Of a DNA stretch of 64,000 bases, positions 759 through 63,434 are shown piece by piece (within the stretch, counting starts at the first letter, position 1; each line of letters begins with the position of its first letter). Source of the DNA: Comamonas sp. (GTDB lineage: Bacteria > Pseudomonadota > Gammaproteobacteria > Burkholderiales > Burkholderiaceae_C); contig JAQVCA010000001.1 in NCBI GenBank assembly GCA_028690035.1, forward strand, positions 95,940 to 159,939, given 5' to 3'. The position numbers and the translations under genes were made by a program. The notes under the pieces were generated by a model. It had not been told where the DNA came from and made no database searches. It was given only the letters and a program-made list of their open reading frames with translations.

Positions 759-832
759 TTTTTTCATAGCTGCTTTCGCTTGTTTTTATTGGTTTTTTCA
801 TGTTTTTTATAATCAAACCGTTGTCTGGCCTG
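759..832 (+). repeat. Dispersed repeat monomer (copy R1)
   Basis: The stretch catagctgctttcgcttg, followed by a T-rich tail with ggttttttcatg, matches the roughly 50-bp monomer found about a dozen times in this window. It lies in the AT-rich gap between the DUF3369 gene and the ogt stop, both on the minus strand. See the repeat finding for the family. Confidence 0.6.
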
Positions 833-1319
833 CCTCTAACGCTAGCAAATACTGTTTGCGCGCCAGCCCACCGGCATACCCCGTGAGCTGCCCCTGGCTG
901 CCGATCACGCGGTGGCAGGGCACCAGAATGGCGATCTTGTTCTGCCCATGGGCCTGGGCCACCGCGCGCACGGCCCGGGGCTGGCCCAGGTGCGCGGCCT
1001 GCTGGGCATAGCTGCAGGTCTGCCCCCAGGGGATGCGCTGCAAGGCCTGCCAGACGCGCTGCTGAAAGGCGGTGCCCACGCCATCCAGAGGCACATCAAA
1101 GTGCCGCCGCTGCCCAGCAAAGTAGGCGTGCAGCTGCTGCTCAACCTGGGCCAGCACCCCATGACCGCCGCTGTGCACGGGCCCGCGCGCCTGCTGCACC
1201 TGGGCCTGGGCGCGCGCCAGATGGGCTTGATCGGTAAAAGCCAGCAGGCACAGGCCCTGCGCACTGGCCAGGGCAAGCATATCGCCCAGTGGGGTGGCAA
1301 ACGTGGCAGCGTGCAGCAT
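813..1319 (-). CDS. ogt: Methylated-DNA--[protein]-cysteine S-methyltransferase
   Basis: This is a suicide DNA-repair enzyme that moves the methyl group of O6-methylguanine (and O4-methylthymine) onto its own cysteine. The active-site motif IPVCHR-type is present as LVPCHRVIG, followed by GYAGGLARKQYLLALE, both diagnostic of Ogt/AGT. The length of 168 aa fits the single-domain form without an Ada N-terminus. The ORF track starts 50 codons earlier (1469), but that extension is low-complexity and antisense to nothing conserved. I start at MLHAATFATPLGDML because the N-terminal domain begins there and cobO ends just upstream (26 bp). It is probably the last gene of the cobO transcript. Confidence 0.9.
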   Translation of the reverse strand: MLHAATFATPLGDMLALASAQGLCLLAFTDQAHLARAQAQVQQARGPVHSGGHGVLAQVEQQLHAYFAGQRRHFDVPLDGVGTAFQQRVWQALQRIPWGQTCSYAQQAAHLGQPRAVRAVAQAHGQNKIAILVPCHRVIGSQGQLTGYAGGLARKQYLLALEAGQTTV

Positions 1320-1345
1320 GGAAGTGGAAGATGGGGGCGGGGGGG

Positions 1346-1915
1346 TCAATCCTCGATGCCGCGCTGGGCAGGCACCCCGGCGTTGAAGGCATGTTTGACC
1401 TGGCGCATGTCGGTCACGGTGTCGGCCAGATCGATGATCTCTTGCGGGCAGTTGCGCCCGGTCAGGCACACATGCACGTGGCCGGGGCGCTGGCGCAGGG
1501 TGTCCAGCACCTCATCCACCGGCAGCCAGCCAAAAATCAGGGGGTAGGTGACTTCATCGAGCACCACCAGAAACTGCTCACCCGACAGGATGTCGGCCTG
1601 GGCCTTGGCCCAGCCATCGCGCGCCAGCTGGGCCGAATGCTCCAGGTCTTTGCTGTCCCACGAAAAGCCGTCGCCCAGGCCTTCCACACTCAGACCCACG
1701 CGCTCGGCCAGGCGGTGTTCGCCAAAGCGGGCGCTGGGCACTTTCATGAACTGATAGACCTTCACCGCCTTGCCCCGGCCCAGGGCGCGAAACGCCAAAC
1801 CAAACGCGGCGGTGCTTTTGCCCTTGCCATCGCCCGTGTTGACAATCACCAGACCACGGCGTTCGCCTTCGGGCTTGGTGTAAGGTTTTTCGGTGGGAGG
1901 GGCTTGAATTTCCAT
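1346..1915 (-). CDS. cobO: Cob(I)yrinic acid a,c-diamide adenosyltransferase
   Basis: CobO/BtuR/CobA adds the 5'-deoxyadenosyl group of ATP to reduced corrinoids in cobalamin synthesis and salvage. Visible features are the P-loop GDGKGKST at about residues 29-36 after LVIVNTG, the block VYQFMKVP, LVVLDEVTYPL (Walker-B-like) and the C-terminal CLTGRNCPQEIIDLADTVTDM with the family's GRNCP. The length of 189 aa is normal. It follows btuD by 124 bp on the same strand and completes a cobalamin uptake/salvage group. I saw no B12-box-containing riboswitch in the gap upstream. Confidence 0.93.
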   Translation of the reverse strand: MEIQAPPTEKPYTKPEGERRGLVIVNTGDGKGKSTAAFGLAFRALGRGKAVKVYQFMKVPSARFGEHRLAERVGLSVEGLGDGFSWDSKDLEHSAQLARDGWAKAQADILSGEQFLVVLDEVTYPLIFGWLPVDEVLDTLRQRPGHVHVCLTGRNCPQEIIDLADTVTDMRQVKHAFNAGVPAQRGIED

Positions 1916-2039
1916 AGCTTGATACGCGCACGGGGCAAGGGTTTACCTGCGATTTGGCAATTTTTAACAGTGCGCATTGTCACCGCATTTCGATACACAT
2001 CGGTGCATCAGGGTAGCTGAACCCGCTGCTGCGCCACCA

Positions 2040-2807
2040 CTAGCAGGGCAGCGCCAGCCACAGACCATCGACCTGACGCACCCGGATGCGCTGCGCAAAC
2101 ACCTGCTCCAGCGCGGCGTGGGTGCGGGCGTCGGCGGTCGGCCCCTGGTGCAGCACCCTGCCCTCCTGCATGACGATCAGGTGATCGGACTGCAACGCAA
2201 TGCCCAGCTCGTGCAAGACGCTCACCACCGTGGCGCCCTCGGCCACCAGCTGGCGTGTGGTGTGCATCCAGTCGCTTTGGTGCGGGGGATCGAGGTTGGC
2301 CAATGGCTCGTCCATCAGCACCACCTGGGCCTGCACCGCCAGCGCCCGCGCCAGCAGCACGCGCTGGCGCTCGCCGCCCGAGAGCTGGGCCACGGGGCGG
2401 TGGCGCAGCGCCCAGGCCTGCGTGCGCTGCAAGGCCGCCTCCACCACCGCGTGGTCGTGCGCGCTGGGCCCGGCCAGCCAGCCCTGGTGGGGCAGGCGCC
2501 CCAGCATGGCCACCTCGTAGCCGCTCAGGTCGGCCACCACCGCTTCGCCCTGCCCCAGCCAGGCCAGGTGCTGCGCCCGGCGGCGGGCAGGCCAATCCGG
2601 CAGCGGCTGGCCCAGCAGCTCGACCTGCCCCTGGCAGGGCCGCAGCCCCGCCAAAGCCTGCAGCAGGGTGGACTTGCCCGCGCCATTGGGGCCAACCACC
2701 GCCGTCCATGCGCCCTGGGGCACTGCCAATGCCACCCGGTGCAAAATTGAACGTTTTTCGGCAAAAACGCAGAGCTGGCAAGCGCTGATAGCTATGCTTT
2801 TTTTCAT
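2040..2807 (-). CDS. btuD: Cobalamin ABC transporter ATP-binding protein (BtuD/FecE type)
   Basis: This is the ATPase of the vitamin B12 importer. It shows Walker A VVGPNGAGKSTLLQ, the signature LSGGERQRVLLARAL and Walker B VVLMDEPLANLDPP in the right order, and 255 aa is a normal length. The track ORF runs to 3770, but everything upstream of MKKSIAIS is a shadow of btuC in another frame. ATG 2807 overlaps the btuC stop (ATGA), giving translational coupling. Oddly, the first roughly 20 codons (MKKSIAISACQLCVFAEKRS) lie in a copy of the dispersed repeat, so the repeat supplies the start codon and first strand of the protein. BtuD is favoured over iron-siderophore FecE because btuF and cobU/cobO are linked. 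Confidence 0.9.
   Translation of the reverse strand: MKKSIAISACQLCVFAEKRSILHRVALAVPQGAWTAVVGPNGAGKSTLLQALAGLRPCQGQVELLGQPLPDWPARRRAQHLAWLGQGEAVVADLSGYEVAMLGRLPHQGWLAGPSAHDHAVVEAALQRTQAWALRHRPVAQLSGGERQRVLLARALAVQAQVVLMDEPLANLDPPHQSDWMHTTRQLVAEGATVVSVLHELGIALQSDHLIVMQEGRVLHQGPTADARTHAALEQVFAQRIRVRQVDGLWLALPC
2752..2806 (-). repeat. Dispersed repeat monomer inside btuD 5' end (copy R2)
   Basis: On the minus strand the sequence reads catagctatcagcgcttgcc, then agctctgcgtttttgcc: the same monomer (AGCTGC-n-CGCTTG-n-tail) seen in intergenic copies. Here it overlaps the btuC stop and btuD start and is translated in frame. Confidence 0.65.
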
Positions 2808-3808
2808 GCCATTTCCCGCTGCTGACCACGGTGCATCAGCCACAGCAAATAGCTGCCGCCCAGCAGTGCCGTGAGCACGCCCACCGGCAGCTCCTGCGGT
2901 GCCAGCAGGCTGCGCGCCAGAATGTCGGCGCCCAGCAGCAGCAGCCCCCCCATGGCGCTGGCCAGCCACAGGCTGCGCCGGTAGGGCGCGCGCACCAGTC
3001 CGCGCACCACATGGGGGGCCGCCAAGCCGACAAAGGCGATCAGCCCGGTGTGCGCCACGGCGGTGCCGGTGGCCAGCGCCAGCACGGCAATCAGTGCGGC
3101 GCGCAACGGTGCCAGCGGCAGCCCCAGGCTGGCGGCGGTGGCTTCCCCCAGGGCAAGGGCATCCAGCACGCGCGCCAGCGTCCAGGCGGCAGCGCTGCAC
3201 ACCAGCCAGACTGCGGCCATCAGCGCGCAGGCGGGCCAGCCCACCAAGGCGGTGCTGCCCAGGCCAAATGCCTTCATGGGCTGCAGCAGGTCGGGGTGGC
3301 GCAGCTCCAGCACCTCGCGCAGCGCCCCCAGTACCACCCCGACCACCACACCGGCCAGCAGCAAACGCAGGCCGTTGTGCGCCCCCTGCGCCAACACCAG
3401 GGCCAGCAACACCGCCGCTGCCGCCCCCACAAAGGCCATGCCCGTCATACCCAGGTGCTGCAACCACACCAGCCCCGCCGCCGTGCCCAGGGCACCGCTG
3501 CCAGCCAGCAACAGCGCCAGCGCTGTGCCCAGCGCAGCCCCTGAGGCGCTGCCCAGCAAAAAAGGATCGGCCAGCGGGTTGCGAAACAAGCCCTGCGCCA
3601 CCGCACCGGCCAGCCCCAGCAGCGCACCGGCCAGCCAAGCGCCCAGGCTGCGCGGCAGGCGAATCTGCCAGAGGATTTGCTGGGTGATGGCGTCGTAGGG
3701 CGGCCACAGCACCTCCAGCCCCACGCTGCCCACGGCCATGCCCAGCAGCAGCAGTACGACGCTGGCCCACAGCAGCACAGGGCCCAGCCAGCGGCGCTCA
3801 TGGCGCAT
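2804..3808 (-). CDS. btuC: Cobalamin ABC transporter permease (FecCD family)
   Basis: This is a polytopic inner-membrane permease of the BtuC/FecCD type, 334 aa. Segments typical of the family are visible: RLPRSLGAWLAGALLGLAGAVAQGLFRNPLADPFLLGSASGAALG near the N-terminus and GLIAFVGLAAPHVVRGL ... LLLLGADILARSLLAPQELPVGVLTALLGGSYLLWLM near the C-terminus. I start at MRHERRWLGPVLLW (ATG 3808). The longer track start (3979) lies inside btuF and encodes nothing conserved. The 5' end overlaps btuF by 11 bp and the 3' end overlaps btuD by 4 bp, so btuF-btuC-btuD are tightly coupled. Confidence 0.93.
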   Translation of the reverse strand: MRHERRWLGPVLLWASVVLLLLGMAVGSVGLEVLWPPYDAITQQILWQIRLPRSLGAWLAGALLGLAGAVAQGLFRNPLADPFLLGSASGAALGTALALLLAGSGALGTAAGLVWLQHLGMTGMAFVGAAAAVLLALVLAQGAHNGLRLLLAGVVVGVVLGALREVLELRHPDLLQPMKAFGLGSTALVGWPACALMAAVWLVCSAAAWTLARVLDALALGEATAASLGLPLAPLRAALIAVLALATGTAVAHTGLIAFVGLAAPHVVRGLVRAPYRRSLWLASAMGGLLLLGADILARSLLAPQELPVGVLTALLGGSYLLWLMHRGQQREMA

Positions 3809-4664
3809 GGCGCGGGGCTTTCTCACGCAGGCACTGCGCCAGCAGGTGCGCGGCCTCGGCCATGCGTGGGCCAGGGCGCACCAAAATATCGATCTGCGCC
3901 GGGGCAAAACGGCAGATGCGCCCGTGCTGCACGGCCTGCAAGCCTGCCCAGCCCGGAACGTTCTGGGCACTGCCCTCACTCTGAATGATCACGTCGGGCG
4001 CTGCGCGCAGCACAAACTCGGGGCTGAGTTGCGGAAACGGCCCCAGACTGGCAGGTACCACGTTCTCGGCCCCCAAACGGGTCAGGATGGCACCAATGAA
4101 CGACTGCGGGCCGGCCGCAAAGGGGCCACGCCCCACTTCAAAGTACACGCGCACGCCACGTACCGAGGCGGGCACGCTGGCGGCAGCGGCGTCTATGTCG
4201 GACTGGATGCGCTGCCACAGGGCATCGGCCCCCTGCGCAGCGGGCACTTGCAGCACATCGCCCACGCGCTGCAGCAGGGTGTGTACCTCAGCCAGGGTGT
4301 CGGCATCCAGCGCGACGGTGCGAATGCCCAGGGCATGCAACCGCTGCACCGCCGGGGTCGAGCGCGACAGCAGCACCACATCGGGGCGCAGGGCCACAAT
4401 CGCCTCGATGCTGGGATCCAGCCCACCGCCCACCACCGGCAGCTGTGCGATGAACTCGGGGGGCCAGCTCGAATACCGATCCACCCCCACCAAACGCGCG
4501 CAGGCGCCCAGCGCGCACACTGCCTCGGTCAACGCGGGCTGCAAGCTGACGATGCGCTGCGGCGGCCCAGACGACACAACGGGCGATGCCTGCACGGCCC
4601 TCCCCGAACCCCAGCCGATGCTGCCCAGCACCAGCACCGCCAACAGCAGCCGCAAGGCGCTCAC
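3798..4664 (-). CDS. btuF: Periplasmic cobalamin-binding protein
   Basis: This is the substrate-binding component of the B12 importer. It has a Fe3+-siderophore/BtuF-like fold, recognisable by QRIVSLQPALTEAVCALGACARLVGVDRYSSWP, then LDPSIEAIVALRPDVVLL, and a C-terminal SPEFVLRAAPDVII. A hydrophobic export signal (ALRLLLAVLVLGSIGWGSG) precedes the mature part. The track start (4724) lies inside cobU. GTG 4664 gives a GTGA overlap with the cobU stop and puts the signal peptide at the N-terminus, so I prefer it (288 aa). A closely related siderophore-binding role is excluded only by the cob/btu context. Confidence 0.9.
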   Translation of the reverse strand: MSALRLLLAVLVLGSIGWGSGRAVQASPVVSSGPPQRIVSLQPALTEAVCALGACARLVGVDRYSSWPPEFIAQLPVVGGGLDPSIEAIVALRPDVVLLSRSTPAVQRLHALGIRTVALDADTLAEVHTLLQRVGDVLQVPAAQGADALWQRIQSDIDAAAASVPASVRGVRVYFEVGRGPFAAGPQSFIGAILTRLGAENVVPASLGPFPQLSPEFVLRAAPDVIIQSEGSAQNVPGWAGLQAVQHGRICRFAPAQIDILVRPGPRMAEAAHLLAQCLREKAPRHAP

Positions 4665-5305
4665 GCCGCACCGCCTTTGAGCACCAGCGGCAGGCCTGCG
4701 GCCATCAGCGTGACGCGCGTGCATGCCTGCGCCACCTGTTGATTGAGCAGCCCCAGCGCATCGACAAAAGCACGCACCTCGCGCCCCAGGGGGATAACGC
4801 CCCAGCCAATTTCATTGCCCACCAAGACAACCGGCCCTGGCGCATGTGCAATTGCTTCTAAAAAAAGAGCTGATTGCGCTTGCCAGTCTTGGTTTTCATG
4901 CCTTTTTTTTACAAAATCTTCAGCCCATGGGGCCTCGGCACTTCCCAGCGACGGGGCGGGCATCAGCCAGTTGGTGAGCCACAGCGTCAGGCAATCGATC
5001 AGCACCAGGCGGTGCTGTGCACTGTGGGCGCGCACCGCCTCTGCCAGATGCCAAGGCACAGATTCGGTCTGCATGCGGGGCACGCGCTGGGCGCGCTCTT
5101 GGCGATGGCGGGCAATGCGCGCCTGCATTTCGGCATCGGCGGGCAGCGCAGTGGCCAGCAGCACGGCTTGGTGGGCAGCGTCAGCCTGCAACCAGCGCTG
5201 GGCCAACGCCTCTGCGTGGCGCGATTTGCCGCTTTTTTGTCCACCCAGCACCAGCTCGGCCCCACGGTGCCCAGCCTCGGGGTTTTTGGTTGAAAACACC
5301 ACCAT
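4661..5305 (-). CDS. cobU: Bifunctional adenosylcobinamide kinase / adenosylcobinamide-phosphate guanylyltransferase
   Basis: CobU phosphorylates adenosylcobinamide and then attaches GMP during assembly of the lower cobalamin ligand. The P-loop GGQKSGKSRHAE (about residues 21-32), the basic block IARHRQERAQRVP, LVLIDCLTLWLTNWLM and VVLVGNEIGWGVIPLGR are all present. At 214 aa it is about 30 residues longer than the enterobacterial enzyme. Much of the excess is FVKKRHENQDWQAQSALFLEAI, encoded by an in-frame copy of the dispersed repeat between the NWLM and VVLV segments. It is the first gene of the cobU-btuFCD-cobO run. The 121-bp upstream gap has no recognisable B12 riboswitch. Confidence 0.92.
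   Translation of the reverse strand: MVVFSTKNPEAGHRGAELVLGGQKSGKSRHAEALAQRWLQADAAHQAVLLATALPADAEMQARIARHRQERAQRVPRMQTESVPWHLAEAVRAHSAQHRLVLIDCLTLWLTNWLMPAPSLGSAEAPWAEDFVKKRHENQDWQAQSALFLEAIAHAPGPVVLVGNEIGWGVIPLGREVRAFVDALGLLNQQVAQACTRVTLMAAGLPLVLKGGAA
4852..4913 (+). repeat. Dispersed repeat monomer inside cobU (copy R3)
   Basis: The sequence aaaaagagctgattgcgctt, followed by gccagtcttggttttcatgcc and a T run, matches the single-copy form of the repeat. It sits wholly within cobU and preserves the frame. Confidence 0.65.
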
Positions 5306-5415: not shown

Positions 5416-5426
5416 AACGCCCTTGC

Positions 5427-10729: not shown

Positions 10730-12317
10730 ATGGCGCGCCCTGCGGCGCTGGCTGGTTTATGGCGCGCTAAGTGCCGTGCTGCTGGAGCTGGGGGGCTGCG
10801 CCCTACCACCGCTGGATGGACGCAGTATCAGCAGCGCCACGCCCACCAGCGCCACGCAAGGCACTGTGTTGGGACACAAGTTGCAGCGGCTGCGCCAACA
10901 GGCACAGCCCCAGGCAGAGGACAGCGGCATCTTCCCCCTGACCGGCCCCAGCGAAGCCTTTGCCGCGCGCGTGCTGCTGGCCCAGACCGCTGAAAAAACG
11001 CTGGACGTGCAGTACTACATCTGGCGTGCCGATACCAGCGGCCTGATGCTGCTGCACGCGCTGTGGCAGGCTGCCGAGCGGGGCGTGCGCGTGCGCCTGT
11101 TGCTGGACGATGGCGGCAGCGCCGGGCTGGACAGCATCTTGCACGCTTTGAACCAGCACCCGCACATTGAGGTGCGCCTGTTCAATCCCTTGGTGCTGCG
11201 CTGGCCGCGCACGCTGGGCTACCTGCTGGACGTTGCACGCACGAATCGGCGCATGCACAACAAATCGTTCACGACCGACAGCCAAGCCAGCATTGTGGGA
11301 GGGCGCAATATTGGCGACGAATACTTTGGCACCCTGCAGGAGACACTGTTCTACGACCTGGACGTCCTGGCGGCGGGCCCCGTGGTACAGGATATTGCGC
11401 AGGACTTTGACCGCTATTGGGCCAGCCTGTCGGCCTACCCGCTGGAGCGCATTGTCACTGTGCCCTACGCGCTGGACTTACCCACCCTGGGCGCACGCAT
11501 GGCGCAAGCTGCGGCCAGCGAACAAGGCCAGCGCTACCAGCAAGCCCTGCAGCACAGCAGCCTGCGCCGCTGGCTGCAGCAAGGCAACCCCGCCTGGCTA
11601 TGGGCACCGGCGCACCTGGTCAGCGACCACCCTGCCAAGGCGCTGGGCCAGGCCAACGGCCAGCAGCTCATGGGCGCACAACTGGCACGCGCCATCGGCC
11701 AACCGCGCCATACGGTGGATTTGGTGTCGCCCTACTTTGTGCCCACAGCAGCAGGCATCCAGGCATTGCAACAACTGCGTGCCCAAGGCATTCAAGTGCG
11801 TGTGTTGACCAATGCGCTGGAGGCCACCGATGTCGCCCTGGTACACGCCGGCTATGCCCGCTACCGCCCGCAACTGCTGCGCCTGGGCGTAGAGCTGTAT
11901 GAGCTGCGCCGCCAGACCCCGCCTCCTGCACTGCAGGCCGATGTGCCACGCAGCCAGCGCCGCTGGCTGCTGGCCAGCAGCGGCTCATCGCTGCACGCCA
12001 AAACTTTTGCCATTGATGGCACGCGCGCTTTTGTTGGCTCGTTCAACTTCGATCCGCGCTCTGTGCTGCTGAACACCGAAATGGGACTGCTCATCGAAAG
12101 TCCGGTGCTGGCCGAACGCATCCACAGCGCTTTTGACGAGGCCGTGCCCTGGCACGCCTACCGCGTACAGCTGGGCGAAGATGGGCAGCTGCAGTGGCAC
12201 AGCACCTTGCCCGCCACGCAAGCCCCACACATTGAGTACCGCGAGCCCAACAGCCGCTGGTACAAGCGCTGGGGTTTGTGGCTGCTGCAGCACCTGCCCA
12301 TCGAACCTTTGTTATAA
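10719..12317 (+). CDS. clsC: Phospholipase D-family cardiolipin synthase (ClsC/YmdC-like), predicted lipoprotein
   Basis: This 532-aa protein has two HKD catalytic motifs: HNKSFTTDSQASIVGGRNIGDEYF in the first half and HAKTFAIDGTRAFVGSFNFDPRS in the second. This pattern and the C-terminal RWYKRWGLWLLQHLPIE...L resemble ClsC/YmdC-type enzymes that make cardiolipin by phosphatidyl transfer. A lipobox-like LELGGC follows an N-terminal hydrophobic stretch, suggesting a membrane-anchored lipoprotein. ATG 10719 is preferred over the track's 10638, which lies in the upstream gene's frame shadow. The stop is followed at once by a two-armed repeat at the convergent junction. Confidence 0.85.
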   Translation: MTAEWRALRRWLVYGALSAVLLELGGCALPPLDGRSISSATPTSATQGTVLGHKLQRLRQQAQPQAEDSGIFPLTGPSEAFAARVLLAQTAEKTLDVQYYIWRADTSGLMLLHALWQAAERGVRVRLLLDDGGSAGLDSILHALNQHPHIEVRLFNPLVLRWPRTLGYLLDVARTNRRMHNKSFTTDSQASIVGGRNIGDEYFGTLQETLFYDLDVLAAGPVVQDIAQDFDRYWASLSAYPLERIVTVPYALDLPTLGARMAQAAASEQGQRYQQALQHSSLRRWLQQGNPAWLWAPAHLVSDHPAKALGQANGQQLMGAQLARAIGQPRHTVDLVSPYFVPTAAGIQALQQLRAQGIQVRVLTNALEATDVALVHAGYARYRPQLLRLGVELYELRRQTPPPALQADVPRSQRRWLLASSGSSLHAKTFAIDGTRAFVGSFNFDPRSVLLNTEMGLLIESPVLAERIHSAFDEAVPWHAYRVQLGEDGQLQWHSTLPATQAPHIEYREPNSRWYKRWGLWLLQHLPIEPLL

Positions 12318-12415
12318 AAATAAGAGCTATTTTCGCTTTTCCCTATTGGTTTTTAAATATAAAAAATACAAAAAATCAATATATTCAGGCGCTAGCAGCT
12401 CCTAAATAAAGAGCG
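12316..12415. repeat. Dispersed repeat, inverted pair (copy R4)
   Basis: A left arm aaaataagagctattttcgc and a right arm ggcgctagcagctcctaaat flank an AT-rich core. It fills the gap between convergent clsC and the DUF4124-like gene. This copy is more degenerate than R11 or R12. Confidence 0.6.
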
Positions 12416-17387: not shown

Positions 17388-17391
17388 AAAA

Positions 17392-17448
17392 TTTATATAA
17401 AAACAGCCGATAAGGCTTATCTGGCAAGCGAAAGCAGCTACCAAAATA
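17392..17448 (-). repeat. Dispersed repeat monomer (copy R5)
   Basis: On the minus strand it reads ggtagctgctttcgcttgcc, then agataagccttatcggctgttttt, the single form of the repeat. It lies in the divergent regulator/efflux promoter region. Confidence 0.6.
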
Positions 17449-17453
17449 ATACC

Positions 17454-26021: not shown

Positions 26022-26116
26022 CTCTTAATTAAAGAGCTGCTTGCGCTTGTTCGATAACGGTTTCAGGTACAAAGATGCCTGAAACCGTTTTTTTATGTGC
26101 GCTAGCAGCTACTTTT
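26022..26116. repeat. Dispersed repeat, inverted pair (copy R6)
   Basis: The left arm is aaagagctgcttgcgcttgt and the right arm gcgctagcagctactttttat, flanking an internal hairpin. It fills the convergent rimO/ispF junction, and its right end supplies the last codons and stop of ispF (LLYKK). Confidence 0.75.
26056..26094. terminator. Terminator hairpin inside repeat R6
   Basis: AACGGTTTCAGG-tacaaagatg-CCTGAAACCGTT is a perfect 12-bp stem followed by a T run on the plus strand. It should terminate rimO transcription. Confidence 0.8.
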
Positions 26117-26597
26117 TATAGAGCAGCGCCACGGCGCGCGCTTCCATGCTCTGGCGCTGGCCCACGGGGCCGAGCTTTTCTGCCGTCTTGGCCTTGACGT
26201 TGATTTGCCCCACATCCACGCCCAGCGCCTGGGCGATGGCTGCGCACATGGCCGGAATGTGCGGCGCCAGCTTGGGCGCCTGGGCGACGATGGTGCTGTC
26301 GATATTGATCACTTCATACCCGGCAGCGCGCACGCGGCGCATGGCCTCGGTGAGCAGCACCACCGAGCTGGCACCGTAGAACTGCGCGTCCGTATCCGGA
26401 AAATGGCGGCCAATGTCGCCCAGCGCGGCGGCGCCCACAATCGCGTCGGTGATGGCGTGCAGCAGCACATCGGCATCCGAATGGCCCAGCAGGCCGTGGT
26501 CGTGCGGCACCTGCACGCCGCCCAGCATCAAGGGGCGGCCGGGCACCAGGGCGTGAACATCCCAGCCCTCGCCCATGCGTAGATTCATCAGGTTCAT
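26109..26597 (-). CDS. ispF: 2-C-methyl-D-erythritol 2,4-cyclodiphosphate synthase
   Basis: IspF catalyses the fifth step of the MEP isoprenoid pathway. Zn-binding and active-site text is clear: [70 protein letters not shown], then [17 protein letters not shown] and the C-terminal [15 protein letters not shown].... The length of 162 aa is normal. ATG 26597 has AGGAA at good spacing, so I prefer it to the two upstream GTG codons. It follows ispD with a 101-bp repeat-bearing spacer. Confidence 0.95.
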
Positions 26598-26607: not shown

Positions 26608-26700
26608 TATGCATAAAAAAATAGCTGCCAGCGCTTGCTGGGCAAGCGTTTGCGGCCTAAATAGTCCAAAATTTTTGGGATTAAAAAAGTTAGAAAATTC
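26608..26700 (+). repeat. Dispersed repeat monomer with tail (copy R7)
   Basis: aaaaaatagctgccagcgct then tgctgggcaagcgtttgcggcc and an AT-rich tail. It lies between co-directional ispD and ispF. Confidence 0.65.
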
Positions 26701-31126: not shown

Positions 31127-31792
31127 ATGCCTTTTTTAGAAACCGCGCTGGCGGCTCTGGCCTTGGGCGTGGCGCTGCTGCTGCGCCCGTGGCGCCAGTT
31201 GGCCAGCAGCCGCCCCCTGGTCACGCAAACGCATGGTGACCTCAGCGCGCTGTGGACGCCGCTGCTGGCCACCTTGGTCATCCTGCCGTGGCTGTGGGCG
31301 CTGCCCACGCTGCACAAAATGCCGCTGCAATTGCAGTGGTCGGGCGCGTGTCTGGTCACGCTCACTCTGGGGTGGCCGCTGGCGGTGCCCACGCTGCTGG
31401 CGGTGGGCGCTATTGCTTGCCTGCTCTCGCCCGGTTTGGATGCCGAAGCGGCACTCAAACTCAGCGTGTGGCACGGTCTGGTGCCCGCCACATTGGCCCT
31501 GTGCTGGGGCGCGCTGCTGCGCCGCTTTTTGGGTACCAAGGTGTTTGTCTATATCTTTGGCCGGGGCTTTGTCGGCACCGTGCTGTGCCTGTTTGCCTCG
31601 GGCCTGCTGGCACAACTGGCGGGGGAACAGCTGCCCGGCGTGCACCAAGAGCTGGGCAAAATCGCACGCTGGCTGATGGCCTGGGGCGATGCCGTCATCA
31701 CCGGCATGATGGCCGCCGTGTTCGTAGCCTATAAACCCCAATGGCTGGCCACCTGGTCGGACGATTTGTATTTGTATAACAAAAATGGCTAA
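31127..31792 (+). CDS. Energy-coupling-factor-type ABC transporter permease-like protein (CbiM-related, orphan)
   Basis: This 221-aa membrane protein has about six hydrophobic segments. The C-terminal text FVYIFGRGFVGTVLCLFASGLLAQL ... AWGDAVITGMMAAVFVAYKPQWLATWSDDLYLY matches a Pseudomonas/Burkholderiales family annotated as energy-coupling-factor permease and related to CbiM. Classical CbiM partners (CbiN, CbiQ, CbiO) are not nearby, so its role as a metal permease is uncertain. It lies 12 bp after mfd with AAGGAGAAGG before the start and probably shares its transcript. Its stop lies inside repeat R8. Confidence 0.7.
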   Translation: MPFLETALAALALGVALLLRPWRQLASSRPLVTQTHGDLSALWTPLLATLVILPWLWALPTLHKMPLQLQWSGACLVTLTLGWPLAVPTLLAVGAIACLLSPGLDAEAALKLSVWHGLVPATLALCWGALLRRFLGTKVFVYIFGRGFVGTVLCLFASGLLAQLAGEQLPGVHQELGKIARWLMAWGDAVITGMMAAVFVAYKPQWLATWSDDLYLYNKNG

Positions 31793-31832
31793 AACGCTTG
31801 TCCAGCAAGCGGTTGCAGCTATTCTTTTCAAC
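31780..31832 (-). repeat. Dispersed repeat monomer (copy R8)
   Basis: On the minus strand: aatagctgcaaccgcttgct then ggacaagcgttttagccattttt. It overlaps the stop codon of the ECF-type permease gene and precedes serB. Confidence 0.65.
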
Positions 31833-34317: not shown

Positions 34318-34623
34318 ATGACCGATACGACCATCCCCTTGAGCAAGGCCATCACCAAAGGATTGAGCGAAGTGACGCGCGAGCGCACCTTGTTGATCCA
34401 TGCACAACAAATGGGCAACGGCAACCCCAAGGTCATCAACTTCCGGGGCGATGTGGCCGAGGATTACCAGTACGACAAAATCAAGCCGCTCTCCACCAAA
34501 GCCCAGGCCATGGGCAACGTGGTGGTCATCGAGGGCGAAAGCCAGAAAACCGGCACGGTGGGCAATTACCAAATCTTGGCCAACCAGTGGGGCTTGCTCG
34601 AAGCACTGGCCAAGTTAGGCTAA
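34318..34623 (+). CDS. Conserved hypothetical protein, 101 aa
   Basis: I do not recognise the family. The sequence TDTTIPLSKAITKGLSEVTRERTLLIHAQQMGNGNPKVINFRGDVAEDYQYDKIKPLSTKAQAMGNVVVIEGESQKTGTVGNYQILANQWGLLEALAKLG looks like a well-folded small cytoplasmic protein, with no signal or membrane segment. ATG 34318 is the only good start, with a weak ribosome-binding site. The stop is followed immediately by inverted-pair repeat R9. Confidence 0.6.
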   Translation: MTDTTIPLSKAITKGLSEVTRERTLLIHAQQMGNGNPKVINFRGDVAEDYQYDKIKPLSTKAQAMGNVVVIEGESQKTGTVGNYQILANQWGLLEALAKLG

Positions 34624-34716
34624 AACCATAGCTGGCTGCGCAGTTCTGGCAATGTTTTTTAAATAAAAATTCTTAAAAAACCTTGCCAGATAAGCGACAG
34701 CAGCTATAAAAATTAT
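34622..34716. repeat. Dispersed repeat, inverted pair (copy R9)
   Basis: The left arm is aaaaccatagctggctgcgc and the right arm agataagcgacagcagctat, with an AT-rich core. It spans the whole convergent junction and touches both flanking stop codons. Confidence 0.7.
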
Positions 34717-35189
34717 GACTCTTCAGCCTCGTGGCGCATCTTGCGCCCCAGCTCCTGCACGTTGAAGTCCAGCAGCTTTGTGGCCAGCACGGTCTCCCAC
34801 AGAAAACCGGCCAGGGCACAGATAAACGACACCACGCCCGCTAAAAAACAGCTGAACACCGCCACCCCGTGGACACCCCACTCGGGGCCGATAAACAGCA
34901 GCACGATCGTTAGACCAATCAGAAAGCCGCACAGCGTCAGCAAGCCAATCGATAAATTGGCCAGACGCCCGCGTGAGCGCAGGTAATCGAGTTCGTGCAG
35001 ACCACGATCGATTTCAGCCTGCTCTGCGCTGTGCCGAATGGCTTGCGCCACCACCCGCGCGCGGTCGATGATGCGCGCCAGACGCCCTGCTACGACGGAA
35101 ATCATGCCCGCCACAGCGGTAAGAAAAAATACCGGTGCCAGCGACAGCTGCACGCTGTGCGTGACGCTGTCCATATCCATTGCCATCAT
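34713..35189 (-). CDS. DUF2721 family inner-membrane protein
   Basis: This 158-aa protein has three hydrophobic segments (SLAPVFFLTAVAGMISVVAGRLARI, LSIGLLTLCGFLIGLTIVLLFIG, VAVFSCFLAGVVSFICALAGFLWE). The Arg-rich text between the first two, GRLARIIDRAR...LHELDYLRSRGRLAN, is the DUF2721 signature. The function is unknown. It is divergent from the DUF3149 gene. Confidence 0.82.
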   Translation of the reverse strand: MMAMDMDSVTHSVQLSLAPVFFLTAVAGMISVVAGRLARIIDRARVVAQAIRHSAEQAEIDRGLHELDYLRSRGRLANLSIGLLTLCGFLIGLTIVLLFIGPEWGVHGVAVFSCFLAGVVSFICALAGFLWETVLATKLLDFNVQELGRKMRHEAEES

Positions 35190-44473: not shown

Positions 44474-45766
44474 ATGAACCTTGCCCGCGCTCTGTACAGC
44501 CTGCTGACCTGGGCCGCCCAGCCGTTGCTCCGGCGCAAGCTGCGTCGCCGCGCCCAGGCCGAGCCGGGCTACGCCCAAGCCATTGCCGAGCGTTTTGGGC
44601 ACTACCAGCCCCCCGACCTGGGGCGCGATGGCGCTGGACAATGGATTTGGATCCACGCCGTTTCCTTGGGCGAGACCCGCGCCGCCGCCTTGTTGCTGGA
44701 GCCGCTGCGCGCCCATCTGCCCAGCATGCGCGTACTGCTCACGCACAGCACCGCCACAGGCCGGGCCGAAGGCGCCAAACTGCTGCACCCCGGCGATGTG
44801 CAGGTTTGGCTGCCCTGGGATACACCCGGTGCGGTGCAACGCTTTCTGGAGCAATTTCGGCCCCTGGTGGGCATCTTGATGGAAACCGAAGTCTGGCCCA
44901 ACCTGGTGGCCTACTGCCGCCAGGCGAGCATCCCCCTGGTGCTGGCCAATGCACGTCTGAATGCCAAATCCTTTGCCGGAGCACAACGCTGGCGCTCCCT
45001 GTCCCACCCGGCCTATGCAGGCCTGTCGGCCGTACTGGCCCAAACCCAGGAAGACGCCGAACGCCTGCGCCGCCTGGGCGCCCCCGTGACGGCCATCATG
45101 GGCAACCTGAAGTTCGATGTGCAACCCGATGCCGCCCTGCTGGCCCAAGGGGCCGCGTGGCGGGTCGCCGCCCACCGCCCCATCCTGCTGCTGGCCAGCG
45201 CCCGCGAAGGCGAAGAAGCGCAATGGCTGGCGCAGTGGCGCACGCAGCCCGACATGCGCCGCTACCAGTGGCTGATCGTGCCGCGCCATCCCCAGCGCTT
45301 TGACGCTGTGGCCGAGCTGCTGACCCAGTCCGGGTTGCAGGTGGCTCGGCGCAGCCAATGGGGGGAGCGCATGCCGCCACGCGATGCCGATGTCTGGCTG
45401 GGGGACAGTTTGGGCGAAATGCCCCTGTACTACGCCTGCGCCCAAGTCGCCTTGCTGGGCGGCAGCTTTGCGCCACTGGGCGGTCAAAACCTGATCGAAG
45501 CGGCCGCCTGCGCTTGCCCCGTGGTGGTGGGCCCACACAGCTTCAACTTTGCGCAGGCTGCCGAACAGGCCTGTGCCGTGGGAGCGGCGCTGCGCGTCAC
45601 GGACATGGCCCAGGGCGTGCAGCAAGCCATGGCACTGGCCCAGCACCCCAGGGCACTGGCCCAGGCACGCCAAGCGGCGCTGGCCTTTGCCCAGGCCCAT
45701 CGGGGCGCGGCGCTGGCCAGCGCACAGGCCATCGCCCGCCTGTTGGTGCAAGCAGACCATCATTAA
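44474..45766 (+). CDS. waaA: 3-deoxy-D-manno-octulosonic acid (Kdo) transferase
   Basis: WaaA (KdtA) adds Kdo to lipid IVA on the inner membrane. The text fits the GT30 family: WIWIHAVSLGETRAAALLLEPLRAHLPSMRVLLTHSTATGR, VGILMETEVWPNLVAYCRQASIPLVLANARLNAKSFAG, GNLKFDVQPDAALL, LLASAREGEEAQW and LLGGSFAPLGGQNLIEAAACACPVVVGPHSFNFAQ. The length of 430 aa is normal. A repeat monomer follows the stop at once. lpxK and kdsB at the right end of the window belong to the same pathway. Confidence 0.95.
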   Translation: MNLARALYSLLTWAAQPLLRRKLRRRAQAEPGYAQAIAERFGHYQPPDLGRDGAGQWIWIHAVSLGETRAAALLLEPLRAHLPSMRVLLTHSTATGRAEGAKLLHPGDVQVWLPWDTPGAVQRFLEQFRPLVGILMETEVWPNLVAYCRQASIPLVLANARLNAKSFAGAQRWRSLSHPAYAGLSAVLAQTQEDAERLRRLGAPVTAIMGNLKFDVQPDAALLAQGAAWRVAAHRPILLLASAREGEEAQWLAQWRTQPDMRRYQWLIVPRHPQRFDAVAELLTQSGLQVARRSQWGERMPPRDADVWLGDSLGEMPLYYACAQVALLGGSFAPLGGQNLIEAAACACPVVVGPHSFNFAQAAEQACAVGAALRVTDMAQGVQQAMALAQHPRALAQARQAALAFAQAHRGAALASAQAIARLLVQADHH

Positions 45767-45826
45767 AAAGCAGAGCTGCTTGCGCTTGACTGGTAAGGGT
45801 TTAAGCCATATTTCTTATAAATTTCT
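45766..45826 (+). repeat. Dispersed repeat monomer (copy R10)
   Basis: aaaaagcagagctgcttgcg then cttgactggtaagggtttaagccatattt: a good example of the single form. It lies between waaA and the pseudouridine synthase gene (same strand). Confidence 0.7.
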
Positions 45827-49282: not shown

Positions 49283-49383
49283 GTCCTAAAAAAGGAGCTA
49301 CCAGCGCTTGCCTAAACTCAGTTTCAGACCAAGAAAGGCTTGAAATTTAATTTAGGCAAGCGCTGGCAGCTTTGTTTTTTGTA
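49283..49383. repeat. Dispersed repeat, inverted pair (copy R11)
   Basis: The best-preserved copy: gctaccagcgcttgcctaaa pairs with tttaggcaagcgctggcagc across an AT-rich core, with A and T runs outside. It lies between convergent glnA and the IclR gene and could terminate both. Confidence 0.85.
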
Positions 49384-56282: not shown

Positions 56283-56395
56283 GCGCTGCTAAAAACATAG
56301 CTGCTCGCGCTTGCTGAATCACGATTTCAGAAGAAAACTCTTTGAAATCAAGAATCCACAAGCGCAAGCAGCTATGTTTTTTATAAAGCGGCAGC
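56283..56395. repeat. Dispersed repeat, inverted pair (copy R12)
   Basis: aaaaacatagctgctcgcgc at the left and agcgcaagcagctatgtttt at the right pair as long arms around an AT-rich core. It lies between convergent oprM-type and icd genes. Confidence 0.82.
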
Positions 56396-59021: not shown

Positions 59022-59053
59022 AAAAAAACCCGCTGGCTTGCACCAGCGGGTTT
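59022..59053 (-). terminator. Rho-independent terminator of sodB
   Basis: On the minus strand AAACCCGCTGG-tgcaag-CCAGCGGGTTT runs into a T run; it lies 45 bp beyond the sodB stop. Confidence 0.9.
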
Positions 59054-59098
59054 CTAGGCATAGCCGCCGCGTGCCACGCACGCAAGCGGCTGAGGCAT

Positions 59099-59683: not shown

Positions 59684-59803
59684 GGTGTTTCCTTTGGTTG
59701 GTTAGAGGTTGCTAGGTGAATTGCTTCGGCGGTCATTGTAAGAACAAGCGCCTAACGCATTGGCACCTGCACACGCAAGTCCGCACAAGCTGGGCGTTGC
59801 TGC

Positions 59804-61126
59804 CTAGAGCAAGCGCGGCGGCACCACCGTCACATCCACCTGGCCATCGGTCAGGTGGGCCTGCAAGGCAGCGCCCACGGGGGCCTGGGCCACGGTGCTG
59901 ATCGGCCGCCCATGCATATCCGATAGCCAGGCAAAGCCGCGCGCCAGCACCTGCTGGGGATTGAGCAAATCCAGCCGCTGCTGCAGCAAGGCCAATTGCT
60001 GACGCTGTTGCTGCAGCTGGCGCTGGGTTTTTTGCTTCAAATCCTGCTCTAACCCTTGCTGGGCCAGCGTAAGCTGCTGCAATTTTGAACGCAGATAGAC
60101 CTGCATCTGCTGCCCCTGACGCAGACAATCCAGACGCTGGTGTTGCAGCGACCGCTGGGGTTTCCCTAGGCGCAGAGCCAAGCTATCCAAACTCTGCTGC
60201 TGGGCTTGCAAGCGCTGGCGCATGCGCTGCTGCACCCGGTGGTACACATAGTGCAGTTGCAACAGGCAATCGCTGCGCGCAGGAGCGGCCAGCTCGGCAG
60301 CGGCAGTGGGGGTGGGTGCACGCACATCGGCACAAAAATCGGCGATGGTGAAATCGGTCTCATGGCCCACACCGCTGACGATGGGCACCGGGCTGGCCAC
60401 GATGGTGTGCGCCAAAGCCTCATCGTTGAAGGCCCACAAGTCTTCGGGGGCACCGCCACCGCGTACCAGCAAGATGGCGTCGATGACCGGTGCCCCCTCC
60501 TGCACGGCGGATCCCCGCTGCTGTGCCAGCGCATACAACTGTTCCAGTGCCGCCATCAGCGACCGCGGTGCGCCCTCTCCTTGCACCAAGGCAGGTGCCA
60601 ACACCACCGGAATATGCGGAGCACGGCGCTGCAAAGCGGTGGCCACATCGTGCAAAGCTGCCGCGCCCAGGGAAGTGACCAGCCCCAGCCCCCGGGGCAT
60701 GGCAGGCAAAGGGCGCTTGCGCTGGGCATCGAACAAACCCTGGGCTTGCAAGCGCGCTTTCAGGCGCAGAAACTGCTCCATCCAGGTACCCTGACCATCG
60801 CGCTGCAGGCGCTCCACAATCAGTTGCAAATCTCCACGCTGCTCGTACACCCCCAGCTGCCCCTGCAGCTGCACCCGGTCGCCATCGCGTGGCACAAAGT
60901 CCAATTGCTCCGCAGCACGGCGGAACATGGCGCAGCGCAGCTGACCGCCTTCATCTTTGATAGAAAAATAGCAATGTCCGCTGGCTGCACGCGAGAAACC
61001 CGAGATTTCGCCATGCACCCGTACCGGGTTGAAACGGGTTTGCAAACTGTCGGCAATGGCGCGACACAGGGCCACAACGCTCCAGACTCTGGGCGCGGCC
61101 GAATCGGCCTGAGAAGAGATCGACAT
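59804..61126 (-). CDS. xseA: Exodeoxyribonuclease VII large subunit
   Basis: XseA with XseB degrades single-stranded DNA in mismatch repair and recombination. It has the N-terminal OB fold (VWSVVALCRAIADSLQTRFNPVRVHGEISGFSRAASGHCYFSIKDEGGQLRCAMFR) and the catalytic block PRGLGLVTSLGAAALHDV...RRAPHIPVVLAPALVQGEGA. AILLVRGGGAPEDLWAFNDEALAHTIVASPVPIVSGVGHETDFTIADFCADVRAPTPTAAAELA follows, with a long Gln-rich coiled coil. At 440 aa it is of usual size. ATG 61126 is preferred to the track's TTG 61135. It is divergent from exbB. Confidence 0.95.
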   Translation of the reverse strand: MSISSQADSAAPRVWSVVALCRAIADSLQTRFNPVRVHGEISGFSRAASGHCYFSIKDEGGQLRCAMFRRAAEQLDFVPRDGDRVQLQGQLGVYEQRGDLQLIVERLQRDGQGTWMEQFLRLKARLQAQGLFDAQRKRPLPAMPRGLGLVTSLGAAALHDVATALQRRAPHIPVVLAPALVQGEGAPRSLMAALEQLYALAQQRGSAVQEGAPVIDAILLVRGGGAPEDLWAFNDEALAHTIVASPVPIVSGVGHETDFTIADFCADVRAPTPTAAAELAAPARSDCLLQLHYVYHRVQQRMRQRLQAQQQSLDSLALRLGKPQRSLQHQRLDCLRQGQQMQVYLRSKLQQLTLAQQGLEQDLKQKTQRQLQQQRQQLALLQQRLDLLNPQQVLARGFAWLSDMHGRPISTVAQAPVGAALQAHLTDGQVDVTVVPPRLL

Positions 61127-61252
61127 AAAGGTCAAAACGCAAAAATTGGTGCTTTGCGCCGCCTACGCAACGCCTTAACTGCCTTGAGCCCTAAAGCAGC
61201 TGGGCCATAATCGCAGGCTGATTTCCACACCACTAGCGCGGAGAAGAACAAG

Positions 61253-61882
61253 TTGTTGTCCATCATACAGGCCGCTGGCTGGCCGATTTGGCCCCTGATT
61301 GCATGCTCTATCCTGGCCCTGGCGCTGATCGTCGAGCGCTTCATTTCGCTCAAGGCCAGCAAAATCACCCCTCCAGCTCTACTGGACGAAGTCATTTCTG
61401 TCTCGCGCCAGGGCGTGCCCGGGCAGCAGATGGTCGAGCAGCTGGCCCAAAACAGCGTACTGGGTGAAGTGCTGGCCAGTGGCCTCAAAGCCGTTGCCAC
61501 CACGCCCCACATCAGCGAGGAAGACCTGCGCGCCCAGATGGAAAGCGCAGGTCGCGCCGCCGCCCACAAGCTGGAGCGTTACTTGGGTGCGCTGGCCACC
61601 ATTGCCTCGGCCGCGCCCCTGCTGGGCCTGCTGGGCACGGTGATTGGCATGATCGAGATTTTTGGCTCGCAAGCCGGCGGCGGCGCTGTCGGCACAGGCA
61701 ACCCGGCCCAGCTGGCCCATGGCATCTCGATCGCGCTGTACAACACCGCTTTTGGTCTGATCGTGGCCATCCCGGCGCTGATTTTCTGGCGCTATTTCCG
61801 CGCCCGTGTGGACAGCTACCTGCTGACCCTGGAGCTGGCCAGTGAACAGTTCGTGCGCCATCTGCTGCGCCTGCGCGGCTGA
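61253..61882 (+). CDS. exbB: MotA/TolQ/ExbB proton-channel family protein
   Basis: This 209-aa inner-membrane protein has three membrane segments (WPIWPLIACSILALALIVERFISL; ASAAPLLGLLGTVIGMIEIFG; ISIALYNTAFGLIVAIPALIFWRYF). It contains the TolQ/ExbB motif LGLLGTVIGMIE..F. With the ExbD downstream it forms a proton channel energising TonB. TTG 61253 or TTG 61256 is the start, after GGAGAAG. It heads the conserved exbB-exbD-lpxK-trm112-kdsB operon. A -10-like CATAAT lies near 61206. Confidence 0.9.
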   Translation: MLSIIQAAGWPIWPLIACSILALALIVERFISLKASKITPPALLDEVISVSRQGVPGQQMVEQLAQNSVLGEVLASGLKAVATTPHISEEDLRAQMESAGRAAAHKLERYLGALATIASAAPLLGLLGTVIGMIEIFGSQAGGGAVGTGNPAQLAHGISIALYNTAFGLIVAIPALIFWRYFRARVDSYLLTLELASEQFVRHLLRLRG

Positions 61883-61933
61883 TGGGTGGCATCTGCCCCA
61901 CACTGCCCACCACTGCCCGCACAGGAGCGCTTC

Positions 61934-62365
61934 ATGGCCATGAACTTTCGCAAACAGCGCACGCAAGAGCCTGAGATCAACCTCATCCCCTTCATCGATG
62001 TGCTGCTGGTGATCCTCATCTTCCTGATGCTGACCACCACCTACAGCAAATTCACCGAAATGCAGCTGACCCTGCCCAGCGCCGATGTTGAGCAGCTGCG
62101 CGACCGCCCGCGCGAGCTGATCGTGAGCATCGGGGCCGATGGACGCTACGTCATCAACAAAACCGAACTGCAAAACCGCAGCGTGGACGGCATTGCCAGC
62201 GCCATGCTCGGCGCCGCCCCAGCGGGCAGCGACAGTGTGGTCATCATCAGCGCCGATGCCAATGCGCCGCACCAGTCGGTGGTGTCTGCCATGGAAGCGG
62301 CGCGCCGGGCCGGGCTGTCGCAAATCACCTTTGCGACGCAATCGTCTGCTGCCGCAGGCCAGTAA
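61934..62365 (+). CDS. exbD: Biopolymer transporter ExbD/TolR family
   Basis: This 143-aa protein has one N-terminal membrane helix holding the functional Asp (EINLIPFIDVLLVILIFLMLTTTY) and a periplasmic domain (LIVSIGADGRYVINKTELQNRSVDG...VVIISADANAPHQSVVSAMEAARRAGLSQITFATQ). I start at MAMNFRKQRTQEPEINL (ATG 61934) with AGGAG upstream; the track extension to 61886 is not supported. Confidence 0.92.
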   Translation: MAMNFRKQRTQEPEINLIPFIDVLLVILIFLMLTTTYSKFTEMQLTLPSADVEQLRDRPRELIVSIGADGRYVINKTELQNRSVDGIASAMLGAAPAGSDSVVIISADANAPHQSVVSAMEAARRAGLSQITFATQSSAAAGQ

Positions 62366-62420
62366 GCGCGCGTTGCACGGCTGCACCACTTTCTGGCAGG
62401 GCTAGAGGTTCGCTGGCGCT

Positions 62421-63434
62421 ATGGACTGTGCCCGTCTGCGCCGTATGTGGCACAGCCGCCGCTGGCCTGCTTGGGCGTGGCTGCCACTGGCCTGGCTCTA
62501 CGGCGCGTTGGTCTGGCTGCCGCGCTGGGCCTACCGCTGCGGCTGGCGCCAAGCCGAGCATGCAGGCATCCCCACACTGGTAATTGGCAACGTGGTGGCT
62601 GGTGGCGCAGGCAAAACGCCCGTCACGCTGGCCACGGTGCAGCACCTGCAGGCACGCGGCTGGCGTCCCGGCATTGTTGCCCGGGGCTATGGCCGCCATC
62701 TGAACGACTGCCGGGCGGTCCATCCAGACAGTGAGGCCTGCGCTGTGGGCGATGAGCCGCTGCTGCTGGCACGTGCCAGTGGCGTGCCGGTGTACGTCGC
62801 CCCACAGCGCATCACTGCGGCGCGCGCCTTGCGCGCCGCCCACCCTGAAGTCAACATCCTGCTGTGCGACGATGGCTTGCAGCACCATGCCCTGGCACGC
62901 GATCTGGACATCTGCGTTTTTCACGATCAGGGCATCGGCAATGGCTGGCTGCTGCCCGCAGGCCCGCTGCGTGAGGCCTGGCCCCGCCCGGTGGACGCCA
63001 TCTTGTATGCCGGGCCCTGCCCACCGCTGCCCAGCCCCAGCACACCCCACTTTGCCGTGCAGCGCCGTTTGGCGCCGTACGCGCTGTCTGCCGATGGCAC
63101 ACGCATCCCTTTGCACACCCTGCAGCATCAGCCCGTGCATGCCATCGCCGCGATTGCCCGCCCAGAAGATTTTTTTGCCATGCTGCGCAGCCAGGGACTG
63201 CATTTGGCGCACACAGAAGGCCTGCCAGATCACTTCGATTTCAAGAGCTGGAAGCGCTTATCCAGCAAGGGTAAAACCCTGATTTGTACCGAAAAAGATG
63301 CCACCAAGCTGTGGCCCCTGCACCCCGATGCCCTGGCCGTGCCGCTGTGCCTGAACATCGACCCCGCCTACACCCAGTGGCTCGATGGGCAACTGCGCCG
63401 CCTATCATCGAACGCAACGCCGACATCGCCCTGA
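62421..63434 (+). CDS. lpxK: Tetraacyldisaccharide 4'-kinase
   Basis: LpxK phosphorylates the lipid A disaccharide at the inner membrane. It has an N-terminal membrane helix (WAWLPLAWLYGALVWLPRWAY), the P-loop VIGNVVAGGAGKTPVTL, then GIVARGYGR, CAVGDEPLLLARASGVPVYVAPQR, LLCDDGLQHHALARDLDICVFHDQGIGNGWLLPAGPLRE and TLICTEKDATKL. The length of 337 aa is usual. The segment FKSWKRLSSKGKTLI just before CTEKD is encoded by sequence closely resembling the dispersed repeat. It precedes trm112 and kdsB. Confidence 0.95.
   Translation: MDCARLRRMWHSRRWPAWAWLPLAWLYGALVWLPRWAYRCGWRQAEHAGIPTLVIGNVVAGGAGKTPVTLATVQHLQARGWRPGIVARGYGRHLNDCRAVHPDSEACAVGDEPLLLARASGVPVYVAPQRITAARALRAAHPEVNILLCDDGLQHHALARDLDICVFHDQGIGNGWLLPAGPLREAWPRPVDAILYAGPCPPLPSPSTPHFAVQRRLAPYALSADGTRIPLHTLQHQPVHAIAAIARPEDFFAMLRSQGLHLAHTEGLPDHFDFKSWKRLSSKGKTLICTEKDATKLWPLHPDALAVPLCLNIDPAYTQWLDGQLRRLSSNATPTSP
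63246..63290 (+). repeat. Candidate repeat monomer inside lpxK (copy R13)
   Basis: agagctggaagcgcttatcc, then agcaagggtaaaaccctgattt, resembles the single form (AGAGCTGC-n-GCGCTTG-n-AAGGGTTT). The protein does not appear longer than E. coli LpxK here, so this may be replacement or coincidence. Confidence 0.4.

Follow-up and report, generated by a model that had tools for sequence, protein, structure and literature searches.

The window analysed here, the whole stretch of 64,000 nucleotides from contig JAQVCA010000001.1 of a Comamonas genome (G000), carries a dispersed DNA motif that occurs either as a single element or as an inverted pair. Its half-sites, each given by one coordinate (the anchor), were located with a weight matrix of 52 columns, which was trained on a single contig and applied at a threshold of at least 12 bits. 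Genes were called with a purpose-written codon-usage dynamic-programming caller, whose small-gene calls are uncertain, and comparison DNA consisted of stretches from relatives of G000, including Comamonas G043 (~86% protein identity). The window contains the following copies:

756..818, plus strand, single element (anchor 777, 41 bits); co-directional intergenic, the next gene (813-1319) encoding an ogt-type methyltransferase
1925, plus strand, weaker half-site (19 bits)
2743..2805, minus strand, single element (anchor 2784, 34 bits); between ABC transporter ATPase and permease genes, kept in the G043 junction
4856..4918, plus strand, single element (anchor 4877, 49 bits); within the adenosylcobinamide kinase/guanylyltransferase gene (4661-5305, minus strand), at the same place in the G043 orthologue
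12313..12412, inverted pair (anchors 12334 plus and 12391 minus, 44 and 40 bits, 57-bp core spacing); between a cardiolipin-synthase-like gene (plus) and an unnamed gene (minus), kept in G043
17389..17451, minus strand, single element (anchor 17430, 46 bits); divergent junction, upstream of a response regulator gene
26023..26122, inverted pair (anchors 26044 plus and 26101 minus, 55 and 49 bits); rimO (plus) / ispF (minus) junction, kept in G043
26611..26673, plus strand, single element (anchor 26632, 51 bits); divergent ispF / mfd junction
31770..31832, minus strand, single element (anchor 31811, 58 bits); overlaps a stop codon upstream of serB, kept in G043
34618..34717, inverted pair (anchors 34639 plus and 34696 minus, 34 and 48 bits); between two unnamed convergent genes, the corresponding G043 junction having one half-site
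45762..45824, plus strand, single element (anchor 45783, 64 bits, the best copy of the window); overlaps the stop codon of waaA (Kdo transferase), upstream of an RluA-family gene, kept in G043
49284..49383, inverted pair (anchors 49305 plus and 49362 minus, 36 and 45 bits); glnA (plus) / IclR-type regulator (minus) junction
55114, minus strand, weaker half-site (13 bits)
56287..56385, inverted pair (anchors 56308 plus and 56364 minus, 48 and 55 bits, core spacing 56); between a NodT-type outer membrane gene (plus) and monomeric isocitrate dehydrogenase (minus)
60028..60090, minus strand, single element (anchor 60069, 36 bits); inside xseA (59804-61075, minus strand)
63234..63296, plus strand, single element (anchor 63255, 43 bits); inside lpxK (62421-63434, plus strand)

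An earlier note on this DNA had described a repeat family resembling bacterial interspersed mosaic elements (BIMEs). The family, and nearly all of the window copies listed there, proved real: a profile built from the copies and scanned over 1.07 of the 2.92 Mb (37%) of G000 (contigs C14, C9 and C3, the basis of the genome-wide statistics given here) and over relatives recovered 306 half-sites in G000, compared with one in a reversed-sequence control, and showed an orientation bias of the pairs. Half-site scores are bimodal, nearly all lying far beyond the threshold. Profile matches at E<=1 numbered 178 vs 0-1 in reversed sequence, and the core AGCTGCNNGCGCTTG, with at most one mismatch, occurs 316 times genome-wide vs six times for the reversed pattern. 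The sampled 1.07 Mb contains 207 elements (111 singles and 96 pairs), a density of about one per 5 kb, and extrapolates to ~830 half-sites per genome. An Rfam search of the window returned a tRNA as its sole match, and no family covered the copies. The earlier observation of the repeats is partly confirmed by these results; the motif and its placement differ in several respects from that description.

The half-site consists of an AGC-N7-GCT core (ATAGCTGCNNGCGCTT) with flanking rigid A/T tracts. A single element spans ~62 bp, and a pair is a fixed 90-bp dyad in which 57 bp separate the anchors of the two cores (81 of 85 pairs; 56 bp in the other four). The pairs had been described as two inverted monomers of ~50 bp; the inverted arrangement stands, and the two loose monomers give way to one dyad of rigid length. 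Other pair forms comprise one 79-bp pair and a small number of compact palindromes (16 bp), and no head-to-head pairs were seen among the pairs of the sampled genome. In the gapless logo of the singles, AGC at positions 8-10 and CGC at 17-19 are invariant, TTT occupies 34-36, and A/T tracts lie at 0-3, 44-47 and 53-57. Measured from the centre of the AGC-N7-GCT dyad at position 14, the tracts at about 35, 45.5 and 56 are two, three and four helical turns away; the outer tract at 0-3 is ~2 bp out of helical phase with the core centre. The dyad centre of the pairs falls between positions 45 and 46, and the two classes differ in their right half, which reads AAGSGTTTNAGCC...W4...AAAWTT in singles (W, A or T) and AAGGATTTCAG...W4...mirror in pairs.

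The tracts occur as AAAA, TTTT, ATTT and AAAT. AAAA and TTTT interchange, so that the T-run position reads AAAA in about a sixth of the singles, and the TpA step is rare, being depleted in all five W-tract sets (none of 500 column shuffles reached the observed low). This combination of TpA avoidance and A/T interchange is the mark expected of rigid, narrow-groove DNA that is read by its shape. In the quasi-stem of the singles, pairing at every position equals that expected without covariation. The arms of the pairs share 2.9 more matching base pairs per element than arms taken from different pairs (z = 7.3), which points to some stem or homogenisation effect in pairs. The central 15 bp of the singles (positions 18-32) occur in two mutually reverse-complement forms, GCTTGCTGGGTAAGC and GCTTACCCAGCAAGC, as though the middle of the quasi-palindrome could be inverted.

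The five pairs of the window (at 12.3, 26.0, 34.6, 49.3 and 56.3 kb) are all convergent and fill five of its ~9-10 convergent junctions. The earlier note had generalised this into a rule that every pair lies between convergent genes and no single does. Genome-wide, with junctions counted only at gaps of at least 40 bp (80 convergent, 405 co-directional and 103 divergent), pairs occupy 29 convergent, 44 co-directional and no divergent junctions and a further 12 lie inside genes, while 14 singles are convergent, 38 co-directional, seven divergent and 52 inside genes. The exclusive rule is therefore a small-sample effect, and a preference takes its place: pairs are enriched at convergent over co-directional junctions (odds ratio 4.7, p = 1.4e-7) and avoid divergent ones (p = 4e-5). 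Most pairs that are not strictly inside genes (72 of 86) have a stop codon no more than 30 bp away. Strictly intragenic copies comprise 57 of the 207 elements (47 of 111 singles and 10 of 96 pairs), and the intragenic pairs all use one reading frame, the stop-free one. In the window, the placement of singles had to be corrected, the copy at 63.25 kb lying within lpxK and that at 60.07 kb within xseA, so that some copies are coding.

The sites are conserved in place. All 11 orthologous junctions of G043 that correspond to junctions with sites in G000 keep a site, one pair being now a single. Across 18 orthologous half-sites of the two species, columns of more than 1 bit are 90% identical, compared with 52% for uninformative columns and 53% for the flanks, so that the bases around the sites are saturated with change, in a comparison that is partly circular because sites had to score in both species. 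Intragenic singles with a G043 orthologue keep their site in four of four cases, three of them without a nearby gap; in the fourth, a 9-residue gap lies at the called N terminus of the G043 orthologue. The xseA site (60069), whose motif is common to the G043 and G034 copies, aligns without gaps to all Comamonas orthologues listed except L098 (a 2-codon gap). The lpxK motif is also found in lpxK of other Comamonas, Acidovorax and Giesbergeria and, more weakly, in Rhodoferax and Polaromonas; in many motif-less genera lpxK has equal protein length at the site and different codons. Codon alignments are ungapped at xseA, lpxK and a gene at 282.6 kb, all of them carrying singles, and do not show the insertion that a Rickettsia-type element would leave. 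The shared frame of the intragenic pairs had suggested in-frame insertion, but the intragenic singles tested align gaplessly to orthologues. As judged from these alignments, the tested intragenic singles arose and persist by base substitution, not by insertion, which argues against BIMEs, REPINs, miniature inverted-repeat transposable elements (MITEs) and Rickettsia-type insertion.

Elements are spaced more evenly than chance allows. The coefficient of variation (CV) of element spacing is 0.64, 0.65 and 0.60 on C14, C9 and C3, compared with 0.90-0.97 in class-matched nulls that keep junction positions and the number of elements per junction class (0 to 2 of 1500 nulls were as even). At distances below 4 kb, pairs are found near pairs nine times vs 30 expected and singles near pairs 50 times vs 75 expected, the latter avoidance agreeing with a circular-shift test of singles against pairs; neighbouring singles (39 vs 44) show no mutual avoidance. 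The avoidance around pairs implies that singles and pairs are functionally linked, that the pair is dominant and that the range of redundancy is ~4 kb. Operon structure was considered as the source of the pair-pair exclusion and rejected, given that class-matched nulls still predict 30 pair-pair neighbours vs the nine observed whether the minimum gap is set at 40, 100 or 130 bp. Element density is slightly lower in low-GC islands (1.54 vs 2.06 elements per 10 kb elsewhere, p ~0.03), a weak effect. Three low-GC stretches devoid of elements (GC 0.38-0.59; C14:1-32500, C9:48300-65100 and C3:1-10500) have the look of prophage or otherwise acquired DNA, and short genes are numerous in one of them.

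Of 135 genera of the Comamonadaceae that were sampled, 35 contain the exact 16-mer, an upper bound as single chance matches were scored as presence, and ~100 lack it; a genome carries at most 350 copies. The 57-bp pair is found in Comamonas and two further genera, other genera having singles and compact palindromes, and counts within Comamonas range from 0 to 84. A 2017 survey (PMC5217627, Table 7) lists, among "potential novel motifs", GCTTAT(N)5AAGCG in Acidovorax ebreus (114 copies; 44 convergent, 4 divergent and 59 co-oriented) and ATAGCT(N)22CAAAAG in Polaromonas naphthalenivorans. The former matches positions 18-33 of the single motif and has a similar orientation distribution; the latter fits the single motif at its ATAGCT end only. 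The survey gives a two-word fragment alone and describes neither the full motif nor pairs, in-place evolution, a spacing rule or a function. The open-access literature yielded no description of the full motif or its function, and an exact-sequence search with core words returned no paper.

Uptake sequences, which mark self-DNA for transformation, are known from Pasteurellaceae and Neisseriaceae. We tentatively read the elements as recognition sites of one protein-read double-stranded-DNA motif of the uptake-signal kind, with the DNA-uptake machinery as the presumed reader, at slightly less than an even chance. Uptake signals account for most of the facts to be explained (a long shape-specific motif, in-place evolution, intragenic copies, even spacing, exclusion over a few kilobases and no polarity), which makes the motif a candidate for the unpublished signal of the Comamonadaceae. 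The uptake signal sequences (USS) of Haemophilus and other Pasteurellaceae and the DNA uptake sequences (DUS) of Neisseria likewise occur in hundreds of copies on both strands, genic and intergenic, and combine a core with rigid AT tracts, inverted pairs at gene ends, relatively even spacing and in-place accumulation (PMC7811141, PMC5217627). The motif shares their over-representation on both strands of coding and non-coding DNA, strand use being equal. In H. influenzae, better uptake goes along with rigid, slightly bent AT tracts that flank the USS core, the USS are relatively evenly distributed, and one site suffices for long fragments (PMC7811141). Moreover, Verminephrobacter eiseniae takes up DNA selectively via type IV pili, and tested Acidovorax strains were transformed only by same-species DNA, no uptake sequence being identified; both genera belong, like Comamonas, to the Comamonadaceae (PMC4212676). 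No published uptake signal for the sequence-specific transformation of this family was found in the open-access literature. Of the competence machinery, ComEC scores above the cut-off in G000 and the ComEA model below it, which is weak for that part.

In the proposed mechanism, fragments bearing a site would be favoured in uptake and recombination, and biased uptake would accumulate sites where they are harmless, at 3' ends and tolerant coding positions and not in promoters, at about one site per transforming fragment; selection or transmission bias would in this way keep the sites in place across the genome. A more specific proposal, which we consider possible and a little more doubtful, is that the Comamonadaceae have in this motif their missing self-DNA uptake signal, the first of a long kind read by DNA shape, in which a strong dyad would make other sites within ~4 kb superfluous, leaving roughly one signal per transforming fragment.

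Several observations weigh against an uptake role, which remains a candidate only. Besides the partial circularity of the column-identity comparison, ComEC is also present in motif-poor and motif-free Comamonas, so that the machinery does not predict the motif. The short near-invariant core (9-12 bp) of USS and DUS is lacking, since only AGC...CGC is invariant and informative columns extend over more than 50 bp. Known uptake sequences consist of a core of 9-12 bp with AT tracts, while this motif is longer (50-90 bp) and more degenerate. The fixed 57-bp dyad and the exclusion zone of ~4 kb around it set it further apart, and to our knowledge rigid dyads have not been described for known uptake sequences. 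The USS of H. influenzae, at about one per kb, are also denser than one element per 5 kb. Finally, a nucleoid protein would explain the phasing, the dyad and the spacing equally well.

That last explanation is the main rival, though an unlikely one in our estimate: a DNA-wrapping or looping protein of the Lrp, Fis or IHF kind would bind singles and pairs every ~5 kb and organise the chromosome. The helically phased A tracts and cores, the fixed 90-bp dyad, the even spacing, the exclusion between pairs below 4 kb and the lack of strand polarity all suit such a site, but absence of the motif from ~100 of the 135 sampled genera and from some Comamonas would be odd for a core chromosome function, neighbouring singles do not avoid each other, and no cognate protein was identified.

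The earlier note had suggested that the repeats act as bidirectional terminators or mRNA 3'-end protectors, an interpretation that is partly supported as a whole. The bias of pairs towards stop codons and convergent ends holds, and pair arms co-match beyond the consensus; terminator function as the cause of the family is nevertheless improbable. More than a quarter of the elements are strictly intragenic, with singles in either orientation, and conservation is of sequence, not of pairing: the stems of singles lack covariation and their W tracts flip to AAAA. A terminator-like GC-rich hairpin with a T run was found within only three of 18 pairs at convergent junctions and one of 24 at co-directional junctions, and a canonical terminator stands beside the pair in five of the 18 convergent junctions. 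At C14 280297-280474 and in the orthologous G043 junction, a strong ordinary terminator directly precedes the pair in both species. Given that the arms of a pair match above shuffled partners, pairs that adjoin a stop codon may have a secondary role in ending transcripts.

We give a similarly low probability to a mobile palindromic element (BIME, REPIN, MITE or Rickettsia-type) spread by a transposase and now decaying. Dispersed dyads with "half" copies and a patchy distribution among genera would fit such an origin, as would an array on contig C7 in which singles abut a sequence like that of repetitive extragenic palindromes (REPs) near a truncated frame resembling a REP-associated tyrosine transposase (RAYT). 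However, positions are conserved with almost no indels, the tested intragenic copies are gapless against orthologues that include many motif-less genera, no empty site with target duplication was seen in this analysis, and the interchange of A and T in the tracts and the even spacing point the same way. The kinship with BIMEs and REPs proposed earlier was accordingly not borne out, and the search for a cognate RAYT-like transposase elsewhere in the genome found no matching one. REPs, BIMEs and REPINs with their RAYTs resemble the present family as dispersed fixed-length inverted pairs and singles, mostly at 3' ends; here, however, there is no matching RAYT, no GTAG/CGTC tag and no hairpin constraint or covariation in singles, the tested intragenic copies are not inserted, and intragenic copies make up a large share of the singles and a smaller one of the pairs. 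Rickettsia palindromic elements similarly form dyads within open reading frames, with a fixed frame as in the pairs, but the cases tested here (all singles) show no insertion relative to orthologues. The beta-proteobacterial repeat element BRE, of similar size (~90 bp), is reported from Bordetella and Comamonadaceae with some copies in genes (PMC3110155); its 69% GC content and variable-copy tandem arrays set it apart, and these two features were the sole grounds on which identity with BRE was rejected.

The only Y1_Tnp (PF01797) match in G000, at L033:1486-2997 (C3 ~349500), adjoins a TnpB-like frame, as in IS200/IS605, and was rejected as a RAYT driver. Most Comamonas examined (L067-L074) have one RAYT-like Y1-transposase gene (237 aa in G001), with no significant single or pair within 2 kb. 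The C7 array (L228:1-3040, L228:14815 and L229:7079-16481) comprises ~14 copies of AAAAGGACACCCACTTTRGTGGAGC, most of them abutting a single, and among these copies lie toxin-antitoxin-like gene pairs (RelE, Gp49/HigB-like with helix-turn-helix antitoxins, and HicB). Its truncated reading frame, MTRPRSSLISLADTPWYHVVNRC..., which has no Pfam match, we take to be RAYT-like, with a REP-like sequence of its own that differs from the motif. AAAAGGACACCCACTTTRGTGGAGC does not occur in the other 1.07 Mb examined, which counts against a mobile origin of the family.

A replication-polarised signal such as KOPS or Chi, suggested by one-sided strand use among the matches listed, is very improbable and was rejected at this sensitivity, the complete G081 list being mixed over both strands and the singles being balanced (31 plus, 32 minus) on G000 stretches of constant negative GC skew.

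The uptake-signal reading, which we continue to prefer tentatively, makes the motif a concrete candidate signal in up to 35 of the 135 sampled genera of a family for which sequence-specific transformation was reported in 2014. If the motif is a nucleoid site instead, it would be an unusually long, evenly spaced and sequence-specific chromosome-organising motif. On either reading, what was a vague "BIME-like repeat" becomes a dyad of defined form with a rule for its spacing and with clear predictions.

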